This document shows positions 30 through 18,627 of a stretch of 21,368 nt of DNA, piece by piece (position 1 is the first letter of the stretch; each line of letters starts with the position of its first letter). The stretch spans positions 1-21,368 of the IMG/VR virus record IMGVR_UViG_3300045999_004663. One strand, given 5' to 3'. The notes under the pieces are model-generated. The model searched no databases, was not told the origin of the DNA, and saw nothing but the letters and a program-made list of their open reading frames with translations. Made by a program: the position numbers and the translations under genes. Source of the stretch: a virus.

Positions 30-2092
30 TGTTGCATTCCTTGGGTTGTCACGCCGCCCATTTGAGCCGGATTTGTTCCAATTTTGCCAATTTCGGCGTT
101 CTGAGCTTGCTGCATCATAAATTGATACTGCTCCATATATTTCTGAAGTCGTCCTGCGAATGCTTCATCAGACTGAGCGCGTTGAGCGATGTCAGGTTGC
201 TGAACATAGGCTTGAACCATCTGCATAGCAATTTGTGCTCCGTTTGCTTGGGCTGGAACCTCGATACCAGCAAAGATCTTAGCAAGGTCATCAGTGACGT
301 TCTTAGCGACCTTCTGTTGTGCTTCTTCAACTGGCTGCAGCACGTAGTCCGCAAAGATCGGGTTGATCGAGGATGCCGTAAACTCAAGGAGCTTATTGAC
401 ATCGAGGATTCCATTCCGATCAAGTTGGACAAGAGAAACCATGTTCTTGAGTTGCGTCTCGGATGTTTCTGGATCGGTGGACAATGAATCAAACGACACC
501 GTAATGCTGAAGTTCTCATCAGGGCTACCCTTGGTCATCGTCTGCGGATTGGGATTCCCGGTGACTTGAAAGAATACCTCATCAGGCCCCATGCGTTGAT
601 ACAGCTTCCAAGCCATATTGAGCACGTCACGAACATGATCCAAAAATTTGCCAATGTAGAACTGTTGGCGGGCTGCAGTAAGCGGGTTGGTTAAATCAAG
701 ACCAACGGCACGATCCGCTTGCGCTCGCATCGACATTTCAGCTTCAACCGATCCTTGATCCATTTGAGGAACCGGACCCCAAGCAATCTCACCAAGACGA
801 CGGTAAGGGACACGACGCCCGGGACCCCAGTCAGACGGCGGACGTCCAGCAGGGTGCATTAGTGGGGGCAACGTAGCCAGTGAAGCTCGGTCAATCCGGC
901 TATCACGCTCAGTCTTGATCTGCATTTGTGCGCCACGGAGGACATCCGAGAATGTCTGGACCTCATACATGCGCTTCTGGTCATTTGCCAAGCGGGTCAC
1001 TACAAACGGGTAATCGTCGTATCCATTGAGGAGTTCATGCTTTGCGTAGCCTTCCGTTTGTGGGTGAAACACGGTGCAATAGATACCTTCGCTTCCATCT
1101 TCTTCGTCAATCAAACGCTGGTAGCCATAGACAACCATGACCAAGTCGTTGTCATCAGTAATTGGGAGGCGTGTGATTGTCTTTACCTTCTCGCCATCAA
1201 GATACATGGAATCTTTCCCACGGAGGTTTGAGATTGCGTGATCAACCCACTTGCGGTCCCATCCTTCATTTGTCGCCTTTTTCTCAAGCTCCTGAGCAGT
1301 CAAGAACGTACGCCAGAAGATATACGGGGCGCGTTGAGGATCGGAAACATAAGGTGGAAAAACCACCTCGCCATCTGGAGCGCAAGAATAGACAATCGGG
1401 CAATCGACGGTTTGACGAGGAAGCGGGATCTCCGCCATTCCTGTTTTCCGCATATCTCTGATTGCTTTCTTCGCACGCTTGTTCGACAGGTCTGGAAAAG
1501 CTTGCTGGATCAAGCCAAGCAGCATTTCGTCATCATTCCCGTCAATAATAAGATTGGCTAGATCAGGGGATTGTTGGGCAATTTGTTCAATGGTTACTTG
1601 TTGTAAATATGTCCTTTTTTCTCGCTTCCATCCGACATATGATACCATAATCCCCTTCTCTAGCAAATAGTTCGCTCCCAACTCCATTTGGTTTTTGAAG
1701 TCAGGAATATAAGTCGAACGCATCCATTTAAGGAACGACGACACCATAGAGGCTCGCGGCATTGACGCCATAGACGTTGGGAACGCCTTAATATGGCTGC
1801 GTTGAAGTGCTTGGTCAAACAAAGACACATACATGTCAATCCGTTCGCCAACTACGTTTACTTCTTGATCTGAAGCTCCCTGCCATGGGAAAGCATTCGC
1901 GCCGTTCTTTCGAAGATCATCAGATTTTCCATCCCAGATATTGCGCCGATCATTGTAAGACCTAAGACAAGACTCAAAATAGTAGTCAAGATCAATCAAG
2001 CAGGTATCGTAAGCATCGGCTAACGCGCCAACATCCGGCTCTTTATCCGCATAGATAAGAGCGTCATCTTCTACTTCTTGTGATTCAATCAT
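26..2092 (-). CDS. Portal protein
   Basis: A 688-residue protein that I recognise as a podovirus-like portal, the dodecameric ring at the capsid vertex through which the terminase packages DNA and to which the tail attaches. The visible family signature is FPWQGASD near residues 68-75, close to the FPWxGASD/WPWPGASD motif near the N-terminus of such portals. A long mixed alpha/beta body follows, and the C-terminal ~80 residues are rich in Gln and Met, typical of a disordered portal tail. The length suits large portals of podovirus-like phages. The ATG overlaps the stop of the upstream 95-aa gene (ATGA), and the large terminase lies one gene further upstream, the usual packaging-module arrangement. 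No Shine-Dalgarno sequence precedes the start, so coupled translation is likely. Confidence 0.85.
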   Translation of the reverse strand: MIESQEVEDDALIYADKEPDVGALADAYDTCLIDLDYYFESCLRSYNDRRNIWDGKSDDLRKNGANAFPWQGASDQEVNVVGERIDMYVSLFDQALQRSHIKAFPTSMASMPRASMVSSFLKWMRSTYIPDFKNQMELGANYLLEKGIMVSYVGWKREKRTYLQQVTIEQIAQQSPDLANLIIDGNDDEMLLGLIQQAFPDLSNKRAKKAIRDMRKTGMAEIPLPRQTVDCPIVYSCAPDGEVVFPPYVSDPQRAPYIFWRTFLTAQELEKKATNEGWDRKWVDHAISNLRGKDSMYLDGEKVKTITRLPITDDNDLVMVVYGYQRLIDEEDGSEGIYCTVFHPQTEGYAKHELLNGYDDYPFVVTRLANDQKRMYEVQTFSDVLRGAQMQIKTERDSRIDRASLATLPPLMHPAGRPPSDWGPGRRVPYRRLGEIAWGPVPQMDQGSVEAEMSMRAQADRAVGLDLTNPLTAARQQFYIGKFLDHVRDVLNMAWKLYQRMGPDEVFFQVTGNPNPQTMTKGSPDENFSITVSFDSLSTDPETSETQLKNMVSLVQLDRNGILDVNKLLEFTASSINPIFADYVLQPVEEAQQKVAKNVTDDLAKIFAGIEVPAQANGAQIAMQMVQAYVQQPDIAQRAQSDEAFAGRLQKYMEQYQFMMQQAQNAEIGKIGTNPAQMGGVTTQGMQQ

Positions 2093-2376
2093 GATACGTA
2101 TTCGTAATAGTCTTCAGGGTCGGCAGATACTAAGCACACTTTGATGCGTTTGCCAAGGAGTTTCTGAGATATGCGTGATGGGCATTTGACAGGGACAGCT
2201 AGTCCATCCATGCGAACAATCACCCAGCTTGTGTTGCTACACATACGGATTACCGTGAATTGGTCTTCAATTTGCTGGTCAATAAGACTATTGAGACTGC
2301 ATGGAGAATCTTCAACAATTAGGAACTTCTTGGCCGGACGACCCCGTTTTGCTGCTTTTTTTGCTTGTGTTTTCAT
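2089..2376 (-). CDS. Small basic protein with AT-hook-like N-terminus
   Basis: A 95-aa protein of unknown function. The start is placed at the ATG at 2376, one base after the terminase stop, rather than at the upstream in-frame ATG at 2430 inside the terminase gene. The first ~20 residues are strongly basic (KTQAKKAAKRGRPAKKF) and contain an RGRP core like a minor-groove AT-hook. The remainder looks like a small beta-rich fold (motifs CSNTSWVIVRMDG and GKRIKVCLVS), ending in an acidic/aromatic tail, DPEDYYEYV. It sits between the large terminase and portal and shares its stop with the portal start. A DNA-contacting packaging accessory role is possible, but this is inference from charge and position. 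Confidence 0.7.
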   Translation of the reverse strand: MKTQAKKAAKRGRPAKKFLIVEDSPCSLNSLIDQQIEDQFTVIRMCSNTSWVIVRMDGLAVPVKCPSRISQKLLGKRIKVCLVSADPEDYYEYVS

Positions 2377-2377
2377 A

Positions 2378-4918
2378 CTAATATCCACCAGACCCATGAG
2401 TTGTAACAAATGACTGGCTATTGTCAACATGATCGAGATTGGCTATCGCGGCATACCTGCAAACGTCAATTGGGTCTTTCCACGCTTCTTTAAGCCCGCC
2501 TTCGCCAGTGTATTCGGACAACGCCTGAATGATGTTCTCGCAGTCGGAACTGACGTAGAATTTGGGACGATTGACGGAATCCAGAGGCTTGCTGGTATCC
2601 CACGACATCTTGCCGATAAGTGCCTGAAGTCCATCGTCAATATCAAGCCCCGGTGCTGGAATACAGACCATGCCTGACTCGTTTAAGTCCTCAATGATCG
2701 AGGAAGATCCATCTTGGACCTGATATTTGGCGGCCCCAAGGCGAGGGTCAATAAGACGTTCAAATATTTCCTCTTCGCCCTCCATCTCCTGAATAGCCTC
2801 AATGTAGTCCCTAATGCCAAATCCTTGACCTTTAGACCCCGGTCCCGGCATCCATTTCCCACTTTTCCATTCAGCCCAGTCACCAACATCAACTCCCGGC
2901 CATTCACGGTAAACCCAGAATGTTCCAGTCTCGTCAATGGCTATCCAGCACATAAACCAGTTTTTCGCACCCGCTGGATCAATTACATGGTATCGAGTGA
3001 TGTTCTTGGTTGGTATGGAGGAAGGAGGAACCACATTGACCACCTTATTGAACTTCGGGAACTTAGTTGCGTGAGACTTCATCGGCACACCGTATGCGCG
3101 GATGAGGATCTCTTCCCTAGTCCTTCCTGACAGCGTTTCCTTAATGCGTTCGTATCCACCGAAAGCATTGTCCTGAGAGTGGAAGTAATGCACTGAGGCA
3201 TTTAGCTTCTTGGACTTCTGGACATACGGCACCAATTCTCCATTTAGCAATTCGGCTGGTCTTGATTCGATGGTTGTTGCACCATCAAGATACTCCTTGA
3301 TAACCTCCGTCCAACCATCAATGGGCGTGAACGTCACAAGCATCTTCGCGTTTCTTGTCGCAAGACGGAACCTAAGCGTGTTAATTAGCTCCGGTCCTAA
3401 AAGGTATTCATCCAGCCATACTCCAATGTTGTGCCAGACATGGTTCTTTGATCCAAGTTCTGCACCTTCAAGAATGGTTGGATTATTTTGATACTGAGAA
3501 TACGTCTTGAAAATGATTTGAGAGCCATTAGGAAGGATCAAAGATGAATCAGTGAATCCTGTCTTCTTCTTGTAAGAGATATAGGTATTCGCGCTTGTCT
3601 GCTTGGTCTTGAGGTTCTCTGGTAGCCAGTCCCACACCGCGCTTTGTTGCTGGCGAATACTCACCTCTGATGTCTGAGCAAAGCAGAAGATTTCAGACTT
3701 AGGGTTCTCAATAGCAGCGCGGACAACGGAGAACGCTCCCCACTGAGTCTTTCCAGAATTGTGTGAAATCACTCCAGCGGCGACATAGTTGTTGTGAATC
3801 GGCACATGGAAATCCCAAACGATGTCGTCTCGGAGGTAATCGATACTTTTTATCTTTACTTCTGGGGGAAATAGTGTATTCTCCATGCATGGCAAGAAAT
3901 ATAGAATACCCCGTTGAACAAATCCGACAATGGATTGAAGAAGGAAAAACCCAGCAATGGATTGCTGACGAGTTGGCGAAATCAGTTGACCCGAGGATTC
4001 AGGCGAAACTAATCTACAAGGTTTGCAAACGTCACAACATACAATGTCAAAGGAATGGCCCCCGATCTGGCTCAGGCCATCCTGAATGGAATAATGGGAA
4101 GATTTTCTGCAAAAACGGCTATGTGAAGATTTACGTTCCAGACCATCCGTCTTGTCTGCGCGTGAACAAGAAAAGAGAGGAAAAAGCCAATGGCAGATAT
4201 TTTCGAAAACTACATTATGTTTGGGAGCATCGTTATGTAATGGAGTCAATTCTTGGTCGTCCTTTAATAAAAGGCGAGGTCGTTCATCACATTGATGGCA
4301 ACACATCAAACAATCACGAATCCAATCTTGAGCTTTTCCAAAGCAACGCCGAACACCTTCGCCAAACCCTTGTAGGGAAAGTCCCCAAATGGACGGAGAA
4401 GGGACTTGCGAATATCGCGTTTGGGCGTTCACTAGAGGGGAGCCGGACAAGAGCGAACTTAAAGGCTTCCATCCGAAGGGCGTCAGGAGCAAGTGAGCCA
4501 TTGAGCAATGTAGAGATTCGCCGTTACTTAGCGTTACTTGGTAGATCCCTGAAACAGGTTTCTGAAATGGAGTCTCTGCTCGGGCTTCCACTATTCGATG
4601 ACCGTCCCAAGCATGAACGTGAAATGATCCTTTAATTTCACTAACTTTAGTCGATGTCTTGGATACCGGGTCATAAATTTCCTGCTCGCCTCCAAGGCAT
4701 CGATTTCCACCTAGTGCAAGTATCTCGTTAACCTCAAACAGTTGCTCTTCAGCCTTGCTCCAGTGCGGAAGGCGGAACCCATAGTGGTATGGATCTTTCT
4801 CAGCATTCTCAATCGCCTCATGGTAAACGGAGTGAAGCCCGATTAGTTCATCTGGTTCCATTTGCACCATCTCCTCATCGGTAGGTGGCGTGAGAATTGC
4901 GTGTTTCCGCCAAATCAT
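2378..4918 (-). CDS. terL: Terminase large subunit, interrupted by an intein
   Basis: The ATPase-nuclease motor that packages DNA into the prohead. The frame is 846 codons, but residues 74-387 form an intein, so the predicted spliced product is 532 aa, a normal size. N-extein residues 70-73 (GGNR) join C-extein residues 388 onward (SGKTQ) to give the Walker A loop GGNRSGKT. Walker B is at 498-504 (IGVWLDE, catalytic E504) and the coupling motif TFTP at 529-532. The RNase H-like nuclease shows D647 (HVIDPAG), D724 (LIDPRLG) and D815/D818 (DPIDVCRYA). The start overlaps the stop of the putative small-terminase gene (ATGA), and the TAG stop lies one base before the next start. Uninterrupted activity depends on splicing, because an unspliced protein has no P-loop. 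Confidence 0.93.
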   Translation of the reverse strand: MIWRKHAILTPPTDEEMVQMEPDELIGLHSVYHEAIENAEKDPYHYGFRLPHWSKAEEQLFEVNEILALGGNRCLGGEQEIYDPVSKTSTKVSEIKGSFHVHAWDGHRIVEARAETPFQKPVSGIYQVTLSNGESLHCSMAHLLLTPFGWKPLSSLLSGSPLVNAQTRYSQVPSPSIWGLSLQGFGEGVRRCFGKAQDWIRDCLMCCHQCDERPRLLLKDDQELTPLHNDAPKHNVVFENICHWLFPLFSCSRADKTDGLERKSSHSRFCRKSSHYSIQDGLSQIGGHSFDIVCCDVCKPCRLVSPESSGQLISPTRQQSIAGFFLLQSIVGFVQRGILYFLPCMENTLFPPEVKIKSIDYLRDDIVWDFHVPIHNNYVAAGVISHNSGKTQWGAFSVVRAAIENPKSEIFCFAQTSEVSIRQQQSAVWDWLPENLKTKQTSANTYISYKKKTGFTDSSLILPNGSQIIFKTYSQYQNNPTILEGAELGSKNHVWHNIGVWLDEYLLGPELINTLRFRLATRNAKMLVTFTPIDGWTEVIKEYLDGATTIESRPAELLNGELVPYVQKSKKLNASVHYFHSQDNAFGGYERIKETLSGRTREEILIRAYGVPMKSHATKFPKFNKVVNVVPPSSIPTKNITRYHVIDPAGAKNWFMCWIAIDETGTFWVYREWPGVDVGDWAEWKSGKWMPGPGSKGQGFGIRDYIEAIQEMEGEEEIFERLIDPRLGAAKYQVQDGSSSIIEDLNESGMVCIPAPGLDIDDGLQALIGKMSWDTSKPLDSVNRPKFYVSSDCENIIQALSEYTGEGGLKEAWKDPIDVCRYAAIANLDHVDNSQSFVTTHGSGGY
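3758..4699 (-). mobile_element. Intein in the TerL Walker A motif (314 aa)
   Basis: The insert runs from C74 (CLGGEQEIYDP, block A) to N387 (GVISHN, block G), followed by Ser388 as the +1 nucleophile. Block B is around residues 131-155, with S139-M-A-H142 in place of the usual TxxH. Block F is around 354-373 (VKIKSIDYL then VWDFHV). All residues needed for class 1 splicing are therefore present: Cys1, block B His, penultimate His, terminal Asn and +1 Ser. Residues ~185-345 show no LAGLIDADG or HNH motif in this frame and are unusually rich in Cys and His (about 13 Cys). This is because they are the antisense reading of an HNH gene on the other strand. Insertion in an ATPase P-loop is a classic intein site. 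Confidence 0.9.
3889..4635 (+). CDS. HNH homing endonuclease encoded antisense within the intein
   Basis: A 248-aa HNH endonuclease on the strand opposite terL, wholly inside the intein DNA. Residues ~8-50 (VEQIRQWIEEGKTQQWIADE onward) look like a helix-turn-helix DNA-reading segment. Residues ~108-158 match the HNH_3-type fold: LHYVWEHRYV, then H133-H134-ID-GN, N141-N142, N146 in SNLE and H155, the expected metal and catalytic residues. The family nicks or cuts DNA and drives homing of introns and inteins. The ATG at 3889 is chosen because the recognisable protein begins there. An in-frame GTG at 3874 sits 5 bases after a GGGGG run and is an alternative start. The last ~60 codons lie opposite the intein's N-terminal splicing domain, so both strands are coding there. 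Product identity is clear; the homing role is inferred from location. Confidence 0.88.
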   Translation: MARNIEYPVEQIRQWIEEGKTQQWIADELAKSVDPRIQAKLIYKVCKRHNIQCQRNGPRSGSGHPEWNNGKIFCKNGYVKIYVPDHPSCLRVNKKREEKANGRYFRKLHYVWEHRYVMESILGRPLIKGEVVHHIDGNTSNNHESNLELFQSNAEHLRQTLVGKVPKWTEKGLANIAFGRSLEGSRTRANLKASIRRASGASEPLSNVEIRRYLALLGRSLKQVSEMESLLGLPLFDDRPKHEREMIL

Positions 4919-5618: not shown

Positions 5619-8600
5619 TTTGAGTCAATTTCAGATTGGGCTTCAGCCTCGCTCTCTTTGATCCCATTGATCATTTTTGACATAGCTTCTGCAAAAGGTG
5701 GATCATTACCCATTTGGTCGGTTATTTCTGCTAGCCCCGCCTTAGTCGTGAGCATTTTAGCAATCATACTTGAATACGCCTTTTCTGTGGCTGCCGACCC
5801 AACATCACGGGCGATAACATCCAAGAATGGTTCAAGTGCTCCACGACCAAACGCAGCAGACATTATTCTGTTTTGAACAAATGACCCAAGCCCTTCGGCA
5901 AGATACGCTGAAACTCCTCCGGCTCCAACAACTGCTCTTACCTCGTTTGAGTTTGTTTTTTTGCCAGAAGCCTGTGATGCCTGAATCATTTTTTGCGCTG
6001 CGACAAATTTATTAGTAGTTCTGTCGCCAAGAACAAGTTTCATTTTTTTAATTAACTCCCGACCTTCTTGACTTGATGCTTGCCCGGGAAGTTGTCCAGT
6101 GTCTTTCAGGAATCTTCCGGCATCGGGCATGGCAATAAACGGTGCTTTCGCAAGTGGTTTCCCAGTTGCAGAGTAAGACCCTAAAAGCTCATACATGAAA
6201 TCTTTTGAAAATGCTTTGCGCTCCTCAACTGGCATTGAATACCAAATTTTTGAAACGTTGCCAGACGAAACGTTTTTAGATATTGCTGATGATGCAAGTT
6301 CTCCATTTGTGAGCTTGTCCCATCTTTTATTGATGGCCAACTCAATAATTTTATTGTCTGCGAATTTTTCTAATTCTTCCTCAGCCGCTTTTTTCTGGGC
6401 AATGGTTGAAATAACCTTTTTTGTTTGATCTTCTCCAATGGCGGAAGACAACATTGATATGTCACCACTCGTCAAGTTGTCCACGTTCAACCTTTGAACT
6501 TGGAACGCTCTATTCAGATCGTCAAGTTTCTTCGACATTGTTTTTCCAGCAGAATCACCCCAAAGAGCATTAATCATCTCTGGATTATAGTCAATAGTTT
6601 TTGGCGCAACTCCGGCTTTAGATGTAAGGCCAATACTTGAAAAATAAGCCTGTTTTAATTGTTCTCTTATTGCTGGCTCAACTGAATTCCCTTCAGCATC
6701 TTTAGCTAGGCTGACTGCCCGCAAAACATCAGTAGTGTTTCTTGGGTCTGAAAGCGCATTATCAACAATTTGAGATGGAGATAATTTAGTGTCACCAAGT
6801 GCTTGTTTCAAGGCAGCTCCAGGAGATGTTCTCTCATAAAGCAAGCGGTCTGAGGAATGTGACGCATTCACTGCTTTCCACTTATCCAACATTCCTTTTC
6901 CTTCTGCTAAACCATCAACATATTTGTTGAATTTCGTCGAAATCAGAGATGCCAAGTTTTTGGAAGGATCTCCTTTTCCTGTTGTTCCACCAGCTGGAAC
7001 GGCAGCAGCCAGTTCTTTTTGTAGTGAAGCAACATCTTGGAAAGTAAGTGAATTCCCAAATTTAGAAAGCTCATCAAGATTGGCCTGAACCTCTGGAGTA
7101 AGTTTGGTTTCCCCACTTTGAATCTTGCTTCTTAATTCTTTTGCCAATACTGAATTTTGCTTCAAGTCGTCAATTCGACCCATAAGTGAATAAATGCCAC
7201 TGGCATCAGTTGTTTTAAACCCTTCGCGCCTTGTCTCGTTCAACAACGAACTAATTTTTTTCTTGGCGTCATCAAATGAAACATCTGCTCCAGCCCTGTC
7301 CATTTCGTCATAGAAATTATCATAGTTTTTTTGGTTTATTTTGATTTCCGTGTCCTCGGCTTCACGAAGTAACTTGTTTAGTGCCTTACCTGCTGGCTCC
7401 TTGTTGAATTGCGGGACTTGAAGTTTTTCAAGTTTGCGATCAAAATGCTGAGTTAGCATATTTTTCGCTCGTTGGTCTTTTCCCGCTATTTCGTCAACAA
7501 GACTCGCTTGCTGTTGTTTAAGCCTTGCTATTCCACTTTGAGCAATGCGTTCTGGATTACCTGCACCATTCCAAGATTGAACAATGTTTCCAAGTTGCTC
7601 CATGTTCTTGTTTAGCCGTTGAGCGTTGCGACTACCGGGATACATTGAACTTAGGATTTTTTGAGATTCCAAGGCGGCCTCTCCAAATTTGGTACCAACT
7701 GGGACCTCGACATTATATCCAGATGATTCTAATATATTGCTTGCATTCTTTAAACTTCGCTCAAGCTCATTTACTACGGGACGACCCATTCTTCTAGATA
7801 TGAATTTAGATGTTCCCGCAGTAGCTACATCAATAGGAAACGATATCGCTCCAACAATACCTTGTCTTGTTATAACTTCCATTGGTTGCAAATCAACACC
7901 AAGAGCTTTTCTGATTGCTATGTCTTGCAGTCCAGATGTTGCCGCATAAAGTCCGGAACTTAACGCAGCAGAACCAAAAACACTTGGTGCGCCAGCAATC
8001 CCTCCACCAACTGCCGCTACTGTTGGCAACGCTTGAGTTGATGCCCCAGCCCCAAAAGCAGCAACATCTCCCCATGTTGTCCCGTAATCATTTGCCTTTA
8101 TAAATTTGTCACCCTTGCGGACGAACGCTTCATTTTTACCATCGACAACAACAGGAACAACCTCTTTGTATTTACCTTTGAGCCATGACACGCGATCTTC
8201 ATCTGTTGGCAATGCAGCAAGAGCAAATCGTTCTTTTCCGCTCAAACCGGAGTCAATATCAATATTTTCAGGATCAACATTAAACGCTCGGCTAGCAACA
8301 TCAATCAGATTTGACCTTGTTTGCTCTTGGTTGACTACCGGTGACTGAAAGTAAGGAGCATAAGAAGATGGATACTTTGGCATCGGCATAGTTGTTTGCC
8401 TAGATACGTAACTTCCTTCTTCCAGTTCTTTAAATGATTCTTTCTGTGACTCTTGAAGTTTGCTTTTTTCTGTTTCTTGTTGTTGGGCAAAAGATGACTC
8501 AAGATCCATTTTTGCATTGTTTAGCAAAATGAGATCATTTAGATAGTCTGCCTTTTGATCCGAGTTTTCTGCATTTTCCAATGCAAATCCAACTCCCCGA

Positions 8601-16554: not shown

Positions 16555-16622
16555 TTGTCGACAATCTCCGGGCATGTTTTATTGTCTCCCCAGTTGAGCG
16601 TCCTACCCGCCAATTGATCAAT
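16555..16622. promoter_or_regulatory. Two perfect 10-bp palindromes upstream of early genes
   Basis: TTGTCGACAA at 16555-16564 and ATTGATCAAT at 16613-16622 are both perfect palindromes. A further ATTGTC half-site at 16581-16586 pairs with GACAAT at 16560-16565. Position 150-215 bp before the first early gene makes them operator candidates for a dimeric repressor or activator. Confidence 0.4.
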
Positions 16623-16640
16623 CAGGTCCAACCCCTGATT
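16620..16640 (+). other. Hairpin with 7-nt loop, T-arm-like (copy 1)
   Basis: AATCAGG at 16620-16626 pairs perfectly with CCTGATT at 16634-16640 around the 7-nt loop TCCAACC. The loop and closing pairs fit GG-TYCNAYC-CC, shared with the hairpins at 17162 and 18389. This copy lies upstream of the first early gene rather than between two genes. It is not followed by a T-tract, so it is not a simple intrinsic terminator. Confidence 0.45.
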
Positions 16641-16769
16641 TCCGTAATGCGCGAATTGACTCGGAACGCGCCGTCCCACCGATCTGGGGATTAATGCAGC
16701 AGGATTACACCCTTCCGTCACAAGCCGGGGAAAATGCAGAGTGATCAAAAAACAAAACAAATTGAAACT

Positions 16770-16967
16770 ATGAACGAAAACTATAAAGCCATGCAATCCG
16801 CCGTTTCAACACACCGCCGCGCCTACTCCATCCTTGAAAACGGAACCGCCGTCTCCGGACTCTTCGCTATTGGCACCGTATTCAATACCCAATGGGGGCC
16901 GCGAAAAGTCGTATCCACTCACGTCGAGATTCTGGACATCACGCCAGACTGTCCTCATGGATGCTAG
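16770..16967 (+). CDS. Small early protein, 65 aa
   Basis: The first gene of the rightward early cluster; no family recognised. The ATG at 16770 is preferred over the in-frame ATG at 16734 because the bases before it (ACAAAACAAATTGAAACT) match the A-rich leader of the other early genes. The upstream ATG does follow a GGGGA run, so it remains possible. The product begins MNENYKAMQSAVSTHRRAYS and contains GLFAIGTVFNTQWGPRKVVS and a C-terminal TPDCPHGC. The middle looks like a small beta-barrel (short strands GLFAIGTVF and HVEILDI), and the ending has a Cys-x2-His-x-Cys cluster. Function unknown. Confidence 0.65.
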   Translation: MNENYKAMQSAVSTHRRAYSILENGTAVSGLFAIGTVFNTQWGPRKVVSTHVEILDITPDCPHGC

Positions 16968-17003
16968 GCCCACGGCCAACCAACCAATCAACCAACCACA
17001 ACG

Positions 17004-17153
17004 ATGAAAACAAAAACGCTCGCCAAACTCCATGCCCTATTTTCGGAACTCGATTGTGATCTCGAGATCGGCCTTGCATATGCAATTGCCGAAACATTTC
17101 GCACCTCTCCCGCTGTAATCTTTGCTGCGTATGAAGATTGGCAAATCGCCTAA
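17004..17153 (+). CDS. Small early protein, 49 aa
   Basis: Function unknown. The product begins MKTKTLAKLHALFSELDCDL, continues through GLAYAIAETFRTSPAVIFAA and ends YEDWQIA. It looks like two or three amphipathic helices with an acidic C-terminus. Support for it being real comes from the ACCAACCACAACG leader directly before an ATGAAAAC start, the same start context as the genes at 17210, 17455 and 18015, and from its place in the early gene string between genes on the same strand. The hairpin at 17162 follows its stop by eight bases. Confidence 0.65.
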   Translation: MKTKTLAKLHALFSELDCDLEIGLAYAIAETFRTSPAVIFAAYEDWQIA

Positions 17154-17161
17154 AACAATCC

Positions 17162-17180
17162 AAGCGGTTCCATCCCGCTT
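17162..17180 (+). other. Intergenic hairpin with 7-nt loop, T-arm-like (copy 2)
   Basis: AAGCGG at 17162-17167 pairs with CCGCTT at 17175-17180 around the loop TTCCATC, giving a perfect 6-bp stem. It lies eight bases after a stop codon and 30 bases before the next start. The GG-TTCxATC-CC arrangement matches the hairpin at 18389 and resembles a tRNA T-arm. There is no T-tract. Confidence 0.55.
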
Positions 17181-17209
17181 AACCCACAAAACAACGAAAC
17201 AAAACAACG

Positions 17210-17434
17210 ATGAAAACAGAAAACGAAAAAATTGAGTCAATCTTGAATCACAGAAACTGGACGGGGCTCTCGCTCGCAGAACTGGTTGACTCCGGGAGAA
17301 TCTCCCCAAGTGAACCTAAGGTGATCTGGTCATTTACAACAGCTGTTCTCGGTGACCCTGCAAACATGGACGAATGGCGGGAAATGAGGAAGATTGACAA
17401 GATTGTCTCTGAAAAACTCGCTAAACTCGCCTAG
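17210..17434 (+). CDS. Small early protein, 74 aa
   Basis: Function unknown. A 74-aa, probably helical protein beginning MKTENEKIESILNHRNWTGL, with SLAELVDSGRISPSEPKVIW in the middle and a Lys-rich helix IDKIVSEKLAKLA at the end. No enzymatic or metal-binding motif is seen and there is no membrane segment. The start follows the A/C-rich leader GAAACAAAACAACG with no Shine-Dalgarno sequence. The next gene begins 20 bases after its stop, across a (CA)8 tract. Confidence 0.7.
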   Translation: MKTENEKIESILNHRNWTGLSLAELVDSGRISPSEPKVIWSFTTAVLGDPANMDEWREMRKIDKIVSEKLAKLA

Positions 17435-17436
17435 TC

Positions 17437-17453
17437 CACACACACACACACAC
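17437..17453 (+). repeat. (CA)8 dinucleotide tract used as a gene leader
   Basis: A run of eight CA units plus one C sits directly before the ATG at 17455, in the place of a ribosome binding site. It fits the A/C-rich leader pattern of the early genes and could be length-variable. Confidence 0.6.
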
Positions 17454-17454
17454 T

Positions 17455-17751
17455 ATGAAAACACACGTTACCATTGCATTCTGCGGCAATTTCCGCCCGC
17501 TTCACATCGAATCTGAAACGATAGCAGAGGCCGTCAAGGAAGCCGTAAGGCGCGTTTCCTGCCCGGCCATTAGCAAGACGCTTCAAACGCTGCACAGTGA
17601 CTTCACAAGGCAAAGGAAGGCCGGGATTGGACTTGTTTCTGCATGCTCGGAACATGGGACGGTATCCGTGAGAATCGCAGAATATCCACGCGATACATGG
17701 CTTGATCAAATCACCGAATCCATGCCGGAAAATCCACTAATTACATACTAA
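17455..17751 (+). CDS. Small early protein, 98 aa
   Basis: Function unknown. The protein begins MKTHVTIAFCGNFRPLHIES, then has a helix TIAEAVKEAVRRVSCPAISK followed by a mixed beta region (GIGLVSACSEHGTVSVRIAE) and an acidic tail. The pattern of an N-terminal beta strand, helix and two strands suggests a compact alpha/beta fold. The opening MKTHVTIAFCGN resembles the MSYEITIAFSKN start of the gene at 19919, so the two may be distant relatives: both have a beta strand, a loop and then an Ala/Glu-rich helix. No catalytic residues can be named. Confidence 0.7.
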   Translation: MKTHVTIAFCGNFRPLHIESETIAEAVKEAVRRVSCPAISKTLQTLHSDFTRQRKAGIGLVSACSEHGTVSVRIAEYPRDTWLDQITESMPENPLITY

Positions 17752-17757
17752 ACCATC

Positions 17758-17904
17758 ATGCAATCCTCCATTTTCATCATCGCCGCCGTGGCATTCCTTG
17801 GCCTGTCTGCTATATTCGGCATCCGCAAAGCCCCGGGAATCCTATTAGGCATTGCCGCCACGCTTTCCGCCGCTTGGATTGTCGCCACAATTCTCACCGC
17901 CTGA
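17758..17904 (+). CDS. 48-aa two-helix membrane protein
   Basis: The frame encodes 48 residues that are nearly all hydrophobic. The first helix is about residues 3-21 (SSIFIIAAVAFLGLSAIFG), a short basic turn IRKAPG follows, and the second helix is about 28-48 (GILLGIAATLSAAWIVATIL). The Arg-Lys in the turn suggests an inner-membrane hairpin with the loop in the cytoplasm. Tiny phage membrane proteins include holins, superinfection-exclusion factors and inhibitors of host membrane complexes. At 48 aa, away from any lysis gene, a holin role is unproven. The start follows ACTAAACCATC, six bases after the previous stop. Confidence 0.6.
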   Translation: MQSSIFIIAAVAFLGLSAIFGIRKAPGILLGIAATLSAAWIVATILTA

Positions 17905-18014
17905 AACAATTAGATTTTTAATCTTGATTGTCGGCATCTTGTCGTCAATCTCTCCACATAACGAAGCGCGGCCCGCGATGCAGGGCGAACTTCACACCTA
18001 AAACGAATCAAACT

Positions 18015-18377
18015 ATGAAAACCACACTTAATACTTCAGATATCGCCCGCGCCCTAAAATCCGACGAAAATGCCAATTGGTCGTGGAACGGGGCAAAAGC
18101 CTTGGCCGAATACTTGGAGCAACTTGAGGAGGACACAGGCGAAGAAATGGAATTGGACGTAGTGGCTATTCGCTGCGACTTCTCCGAGTTCGCCAGCTTG
18201 CAAGAGTGGGTTTCCGAATATCACGGAGAGCCACAAGCGGACGCTATGTCGTCGTCGGGAATCGACTTGGACGGGGACGAAACAGAGGAGGAGATTGACG
18301 ATTTGATCCGCTCATACATTCAAGACCACGGCACCCTAATCGAATTCAGCGGCGGAATTATCGTTTCTTGCTTCTAA
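18015..18377 (+). CDS. Conserved acidic early protein, 120 aa
   Basis: The start is placed at the ATG at 18015 after the A/C-rich leader AACGAATCAAACT; the upstream codons back to 17928 do not look coding. The product begins MKTTLNTSDIARALKSDENA. It then contains AKALAEYLEQLEEDTGEEME followed by LDVVAIRCDFSEFASLQEWV, a combination I recognise from many phage and plasmid hypothetical proteins. The C-terminal half is very acidic (DLDGDETEEEIDDLI) and ends GTLIEFSGGIIVSCF. The strong negative charge is reminiscent of DNA-mimic or antirestriction proteins, but this is only a charge argument; no function has been shown to my knowledge. Confidence 0.75.
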   Translation: MKTTLNTSDIARALKSDENANWSWNGAKALAEYLEQLEEDTGEEMELDVVAIRCDFSEFASLQEWVSEYHGEPQADAMSSSGIDLDGDETEEEIDDLIRSYIQDHGTLIEFSGGIIVSCF

Positions 18378-18388
18378 ATACCAACCCT

Positions 18389-18407
18389 GCAAGGTTCGAT
18401 CCCTTGC
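18389..18407 (+). other. Intergenic hairpin identical in form to a tRNA T-arm (copy 3)
   Basis: GCAAGG at 18389-18394 pairs with CCTTGC at 18402-18407 around the loop TTCGATC. The segment GGTTCGATCCC matches the tRNA T-loop consensus (G53-TTCRANY-C61) exactly. No D-arm, anticodon arm or matching acceptor strand is found upstream, where the previous gene ends at 18377, so this is not a whole tRNA. It lies 11 bases after a stop and 16 before the next start. Confidence 0.6.
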
Positions 18408-18423
18408 CAATACTTCAAAAATT

Positions 18424-18627
18424 ATGAACCATTCCGTAGAGATCACAAAAGAAGCAGCCTTCGCGCTCATTGGAAACGACGAAGAGACTTGGAGCGATTA
18501 TCAGGATCACCAGCAAACAGAGCTTAACGAGACGTCATTTTACCTAGCTCATGGCGTGAGAATTGCAGCAATTCACAATTACATTTCCAACGTGACGCAG
18601 TATTACATTCAAGACGTAAACGCATAA
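18424..18627 (+). CDS. Small early protein, 67 aa
   Basis: Function unknown. The product begins MNHSVEITKEAAFALIGNDE, has an acidic/Gln-rich middle (DYQDHQQTELNETSF) and ends with an aromatic-rich stretch (IHNYISNVTQYYIQDVNA). It is probably a small alpha/beta protein; no known motif is visible. The leader ACTTCAAAAATT directly follows the T-arm-like hairpin, so translation of this gene could be influenced by that structure. Confidence 0.65.
   Translation: MNHSVEITKEAAFALIGNDEETWSDYQDHQQTELNETSFYLAHGVRIAAIHNYISNVTQYYIQDVNA

Follow-up and report, generated by a model that had tools for sequence, protein, structure and literature searches.

Why would a virus place hairpins resembling the T-arm of a tRNA in the spacers between its early genes? 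This question is raised by a 21,368-nucleotide stretch of viral DNA (IMG/VR record IMGVR_UViG_3300045999_004663, positions 1 to 21,368; hereafter the window), for which a preliminary description had reported three T-arm-like hairpins with a shared 7-nucleotide (nt) loop. Comparison with related phages indicates that two of the three, at 17162 and 18389, belong to a conserved family located just past stop codons, and that this post-stop element is almost certainly an RNA hairpin maintained by selection. Re-reading the sequence gave all three hairpins with the stems and loops originally described:

17162..17180, + strand: hairpin A, AAGCGG-TTCCATC-CCGCTT, stem class A, 8 nt past the stop codon of the open reading frame (ORF) at 17004-17153
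18389..18407, + strand: hairpin B, GCAAGG-TTCGATC-CCTTGC, stem class B, 11 nt past the stop codon of the ORF at 18015-18377
16620..16640, + strand: third hairpin, AATCAGG-TCCAACC-CCTGATT, with a 7-base-pair (bp) stem; matches the consensus but is not post-stop

The proposed fit of all three to GG-TYCNAYC-CC was borne out by a search of the window for GGTYCNAYCCC, which returned three matches, all on the + strand, whereas dinucleotide shuffles gave a mean of 0.12 matches and never three. Perfect stems of at least 6 bp enclosing a 7-nt loop occur at only five places in the window, three of which are these hairpins. The distances of 8 and 11 nt from stop codons, the location of the 16620 hairpin ahead of the first early gene, and the lack of a T-tract at any hairpin on the + strand also agree with the earlier account. 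The 16620 hairpin lies ~50 nt upstream of a twister candidate. For the hairpins at 17162 and 18389, the hairpin is the minimum-energy fold of its own spacer (z -2.0 and z -2.6, respectively). No tRNA gene was found in the window, with neither ARAGORN nor Rfam giving a cloverleaf, and the window hairpins had no Rfam match up to an E value of 1 and no hammerhead core or other ribozyme core.

Selection on the post-stop hairpin

We gathered related viral contigs through their head-closure, phrog_9974, and RecT proteins; many of these contigs are fragments, their ORFs were called mechanically, and the counts below take related contigs as separate. Across 207 loci, the loop class TYCNAYC yielded 45 perfect hairpins, compared to 0 for the reversed class, and the reversed motif was never found in such post-stop spacers. 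Without a loop filter, 89 hairpins were found between a stop codon and the next ATG; 54 of them had a 7-nt loop, each other loop length accounted for 3-8, and the loop was TYCNAHC in 48 of the 54. Without a stem filter, GTYCNAHCC was flanked by a stem of at least 6 bp in 47 of 53 occurrences in spacers and in 3 of 74 elsewhere.

As an independent test of covariation, we used 12 spacers chosen by gene position, past the phrog_9974 gene, and not by pairing. The consensus fold of this set is the hairpin, with 95.2% of cells paired and changes on both sides at 4 of 7 pairs, one of which occurs as GC, AU, GU, and CG; none of 500 shuffles did as well. An alignment of 36 hairpins also shows covariation, inflated because those hairpins were picked for pairing. 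The G.U pairs, together with occurrence on one strand, argue for an RNA structure rather than a DNA palindrome. Chance is excluded as the origin of the element by the shuffles, the reversed-motif control, and the loop-only, no-loop-filter, and position-only selections. The earlier suggestion that a conserved loop on varying stems marks a selected RNA structure therefore stands for the hairpins at 17162 and 18389, which belong to a family found in related phages with stem pairs that change on both sides, and not for the 16620 hairpin, which has no counterpart in relatives except in a near-identical contig. The 16620 hairpin may be a family member or a product of chance, and relatives give no support for membership. 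The near-identical contig G001 (37,249 bases, identical to the window over the 3,000 bases compared) did not supply the further copies looked for in a fuller genome: it has no additional post-stop hairpin, and other copies sit in other phages.

The sequences show the hairpin to be a 5-9 bp stem closed by G-C around the loop UYCNAYC. In nearly all cases it starts 7-13 nt past the stop codon, it ends 13-34 nt before the next ATG, and 40-64 nt (median 50) lie from the stop codon to the ATG. Spacing to the stop is tighter than spacing to the start, tying the hairpin to the upstream cistron. The lead ahead of the hairpin consists mainly of C (46%) and A (35%) with 1% G, and the leader past it mainly of A (48%) and C (37%) with 4% G; these nearly G-free flanks would leave the hairpin standing alone within unpaired RNA. 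The two post-stop hairpins of the window have the following surroundings:

17154..17209, + strand: spacer of hairpin A, with an 8-nt A/C-rich lead, the hairpin, and an A/C-rich leader to the ATG at 17210
17004..17153, + strand: ORF upstream of hairpin A, small, early, 49 amino acids (aa), matching no known family
17210..17434, + strand: ORF downstream of hairpin A, small, early, 74 aa, matching no known family
18378..18423, + strand: spacer of hairpin B, with an 11-nt lead, the hairpin, and an A-rich leader to the ATG at 18424
18015..18377, + strand: ORF upstream of hairpin B, early, 120 aa, phrog_9974 (function unknown)
18424..18627, + strand: ORF downstream of hairpin B, early, 67 aa

Elsewhere in the window, the terminase large subunit (2378-4918, - strand) has an intein at its Walker A motif, for which the PF14890 match falls slightly short of the cut-off. 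Within the intein region, the opposite strand carries an ORF for an HNH endonuclease (PF13392; 3763-4635, + strand).

Stem classes, spread and host

Loops recurring in the spacers of relatives include TTCAATC, TTCGATC, TTCCACC, TCCAATC, TCCGATC, TTCGACC, and similar sequences, and two stem types dominate. Class A has the stem AAGCGG(G)/(C)CCGCTT followed by CACACA... ATG. Its stem is nearly constant and its loop varied, and it follows genes of about 20 families without detectable similarity and precedes genes of a dozen different families. Class B has the stem GGCGAGG/CCTCGCC, GGCAAGG/CCTTGCC, or GCAAGG/CCTTGC followed by AATAC... ATG, and follows genes of three families. Scanning IMG/VR with the class B pattern returned 41 stretches, mostly post-stop hairpins and several from other phage groups; when the pattern was shortened by one C, matches in the viral scan mostly lacked a post-stop hairpin. 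Contigs of 62-63 kb from another phage group carry the hairpin stem GGGGCGAGG/CCTCGCCCC, another group has ...ACTATCATAACACTATCAC... ATG with up to 5 hairpin copies, and a further distant group has the stem GCGGGGCGG/CCTCCCCGC with a T-rich tail. Carriers such as G016, G024, and G027 have almost no genes in common with G001, and a blastp comparison of ORFs of at least 60 aa found no gene common to nine carrier contigs, several of which are incomplete. Among named phages the nearest is C75C1, in which the loop pattern matches twice, each time antisense to the early genes. The phrog_9974 gene is also present in Microcystis phages. Related contigs also matched the abiF RNA (RF03085) at L091 7158-7194 (-) and L174 16166-16202 (+), one of them above the gathering score.

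A prophage (L295) in a genome of the phylum Verrucomicrobiota carries a T-loop hairpin at 8076-8100 (-) that separates the major capsid gene from the gene after it, and this one example hints at Verrucomicrobiota hosts. The class B pattern occurred in two of the Verrucomicrobiota genomes searched (prophage L295 and L269) and the class A pattern in none of them. The match in L269, a Verrucomicrobia metagenome-assembled genome (MAG), is the same 25-mer at 2092-2116 (-) in an apparent group II intron remnant and was judged to be probably chance. A head-closure profile search of genome contigs found no relative, and among 388 genomes of the phylum of a Verrucomicrobiota MAG no match to the portal protein exceeded 29% identity. 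Rfam has no entry for the hairpin at these sites, and literature searches, in a limited library, turned up none.

Likeness to the tRNA T-arm and competing explanations

The hairpins keep G53-C61, U54, C56, A58, and pyrimidine 60 of the tRNA T-arm, together with a stem of at least 5 bp and a 7-nt loop. Unlike T-arms, they lie in mRNA spacers, have stems of 6-9 bp, accept any base at 57, and lack a tRNA body. The resemblance is real at the positions that determine the fold. Position 55 is U in 43 of 56 hairpins and C in 13 (in the window, C at 16620 and U at 17162 and 18389). In the unbiased set, position 60 is always C and position 59 almost always a pyrimidine, unlike the tRNA T-arms met in passing, which mostly end in T. 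The frequency of C55, the freedom at 57, and the invariant final C of the loop argue against a simple T-arm copy.

These observations bear on the possibility that the hairpins mimic T-arms as substrates of host TruB (pseudouridine 55), TrmA/TrmFO (m5U54), or both, with the modified or bound loop stabilizing the hairpin or recruiting the enzyme. TruB/Pus4 and TrmA/TrmFO need no more of a substrate than a 5-bp stem with a 7-nt T-loop (PMC7912444), a form that the hairpins have. They carry the stem length, loop length, G53-C61, U54, C56, and A58 of a TruB/Pus4 substrate, and U54, the target uridine of TrmA/TrmFO, is found in all 48 spacer hairpins with the loop. Human TRUB1 modifies T-arm-like mRNA hairpins with the motif GUUCNANNC (PMC5713356), and three quarters of the phage hairpins fit this motif, having U55 as it does; the TRUB1 hairpins are in eukaryotic mRNA, whereas the phage hairpins lie in phage mRNA at a fixed distance past stop codons. 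The carriers checked have no phage-encoded gene in common, which also favors a host enzyme. However, the target uridine is absent from the hairpins with C55, so pseudouridine 55 cannot be required, and the constant C60 and near-constant pyrimidine 59 depart from the T-arms mentioned above. We regard T-arm mimicry as unlikely, although it deserves consideration. Cleavage by tRNA-processing enzymes fares worse. RNase P, RNase Z, and the CCA enzyme gauge about 12 bp from the T-loop. RNase P substrates have about 12 bp of acceptor and T-stem from the T-loop to the cleavage site and a 3' RCCA (PMC11143913), whereas the hairpin stems are 6-9 bp and no 3' RCCA follows. These features count against an RNase P substrate and make processing by any of the three enzymes extremely improbable.

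The spacers could instead act in DNA, as short conserved cassette boundaries at which small early genes are swapped by recombination or RecT annealing, with the hairpin carried along. The near constancy of the class A stem between unrelated genes fits this explanation, as does the RecT encoded by the window phage. Preservation of the loop across unrelated stems and phages, and stem covariation through G.U intermediates, point to RNA, and no early promoter consensus lies beside the post-stop hairpins on the + strand, where a sigma-70-like scan that does not cover other promoter types found no promoter at either hairpin. A boundary function in DNA is improbable as the principal explanation, although it may hold alongside a role in RNA. 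In T4-type phages, promoter early stem-loops reportedly occur between swapped small genes, as Arbiol is said to have described in 2010. The phage hairpins likewise place a stem-loop between swapped genes and differ in having no promoter found, a specific conserved 7-nt loop, and covariation at the RNA level. Transcription termination or attenuation by a hairpin with a T-loop-like loop seems less probable again. Intrinsic terminators resemble the hairpins in forming a stable structure soon past a stop codon, a classical intrinsic terminator follows the phrog_9974 homologue in three contigs (L110, L111, and L114) where close relatives carry the T-loop hairpin, and the distant group with stem GCGGGGCGG has its T-rich tail. 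The main groups, unlike terminators, have a conserved loop and no U-tract, their tails being only CACACA, AATAC, or ACTATC; a terminator scan of the + strand found none in the hairpin region of the window, and the downstream genes keep the same direction. Finally, the hairpin might signal to the terminating ribosome, promoting stop-codon readthrough or termination-reinitiation, because stimulators of readthrough and frameshifting stand at distances past the stop similar to the 7-13 nt seen here. However, the frame past the stop shows no more openness than the others, the ATG that follows can be in any frame, and TAA accounts for 44 of 56 stops. Frame openness, ATG frame, and stop identity rule against readthrough as the main role, and we consider any signal of this kind very unlikely.

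A possible boundary element between cistrons

The preliminary description proposed that the hairpins recruit tRNA-handling enzymes, mark processing sites, or stabilize mRNA ends, all of which are plausible. Our preferred reading, held with as much doubt as confidence, is that the post-stop hairpin serves as a cis-acting, modular mRNA boundary element between cistrons, read by the host, that limits decay or defines a processed end. A ribosome with the stop codon in its A site would reach to about the foot of the hairpin and leave it unopened. A ribosome halted at the stop codon would thus cover the lead without melting the hairpin. Every translated cistron with the element would keep a folded hairpin at its 3' edge, limiting 3'-to-5' decay or fixing where the processed upstream message ends, and the A/C-rich leader would stay accessible to the next start. 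Since the loop recurs in unrelated phages that have no gene in common, its reader would be an RNA-binding factor of the host, perhaps one that acts on the T-arms of tRNAs as well; the near absence of shared genes among carriers, together with the Verrucomicrobiota prophage, makes a host reader likelier than a phage-encoded one.

Ribozyme-like elements occupy equivalent operon positions:

16688..16747, + strand: twister-P1 candidate (RF03160, 48.4 bits, E 3.5e-8, under the gathering score of 67.2); an A-rich leader and then the first early gene come after it
Type-II-hammerhead-like elements: L022 6070-, L085 10604+, L086 10815+, L093 9974+
Further type-II-hammerhead-like elements: L094 7403+, L102 9449+, L154 8233+, L174 7303+, and about 28 others

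Type-II-hammerhead-like elements were sought by motif (GAAA, stem III, GUC, stem I, CUGANGA, open stem II); about 36 turned up in about 35 related contigs, and 24 of these elements start 0-5 nt past a stop codon. In three contigs (L090, L095, and L096), such an element fills the spacer that elsewhere holds hairpin B, and once an element and a hairpin share one spacer in the same early operons. Two type-I-like hammerhead motifs were also seen in L091 (1064+ and 2326+), the first directly past the phrog_9974 stop codon. Clustered phage hammerheads flank changing genes, and their suggested task is to cleave long transcripts so that mRNAs of gene length result (PMC3088659). Like them, the hairpins are structured RNAs that flank single genes or short blocks while the genes change; unlike them, the hairpin lacks a ribozyme core, and no cleavage by it is known. 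Hammerhead-like and twister-like ribozymes at equivalent operon positions fit a shared role in making gene-length mRNAs.

Several points weigh against a boundary role. A generic role in stability needs no conserved loop, hence the assumed reader; each phage has post-stop hairpins in only 1-5 spacers; at some homologous positions the spacer has just an ordinary intrinsic terminator or is empty; and several of the hammerhead-like elements score 31-34 bits in Rfam against a gathering score of 37. A broader scenario, which we consider rather doubtful, is that several unrelated phage groups arrived independently at, or passed among themselves, a T-arm mimic past stop codons that brings a tRNA-handling enzyme of the host to phage mRNA. 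The modified, enzyme-bound 3' boundaries would then work with self-cleaving ribozymes to turn one early transcript into protected gene-length mRNAs.

The hairpin is a compact, strongly conserved mRNA element common to phages with almost no shared genes, and through it a host factor acting at the ends of messages might be found in a group of bacteria that is undercultured. The early operons, and in one case the same spacer, are common to hairpins and ribozyme candidates, which provides a testable model of phage mRNA maturation. Should the likeness to the T-arm prove functional, the element would give bacteria a natural example of mRNA that borrows the machinery of tRNA modification.

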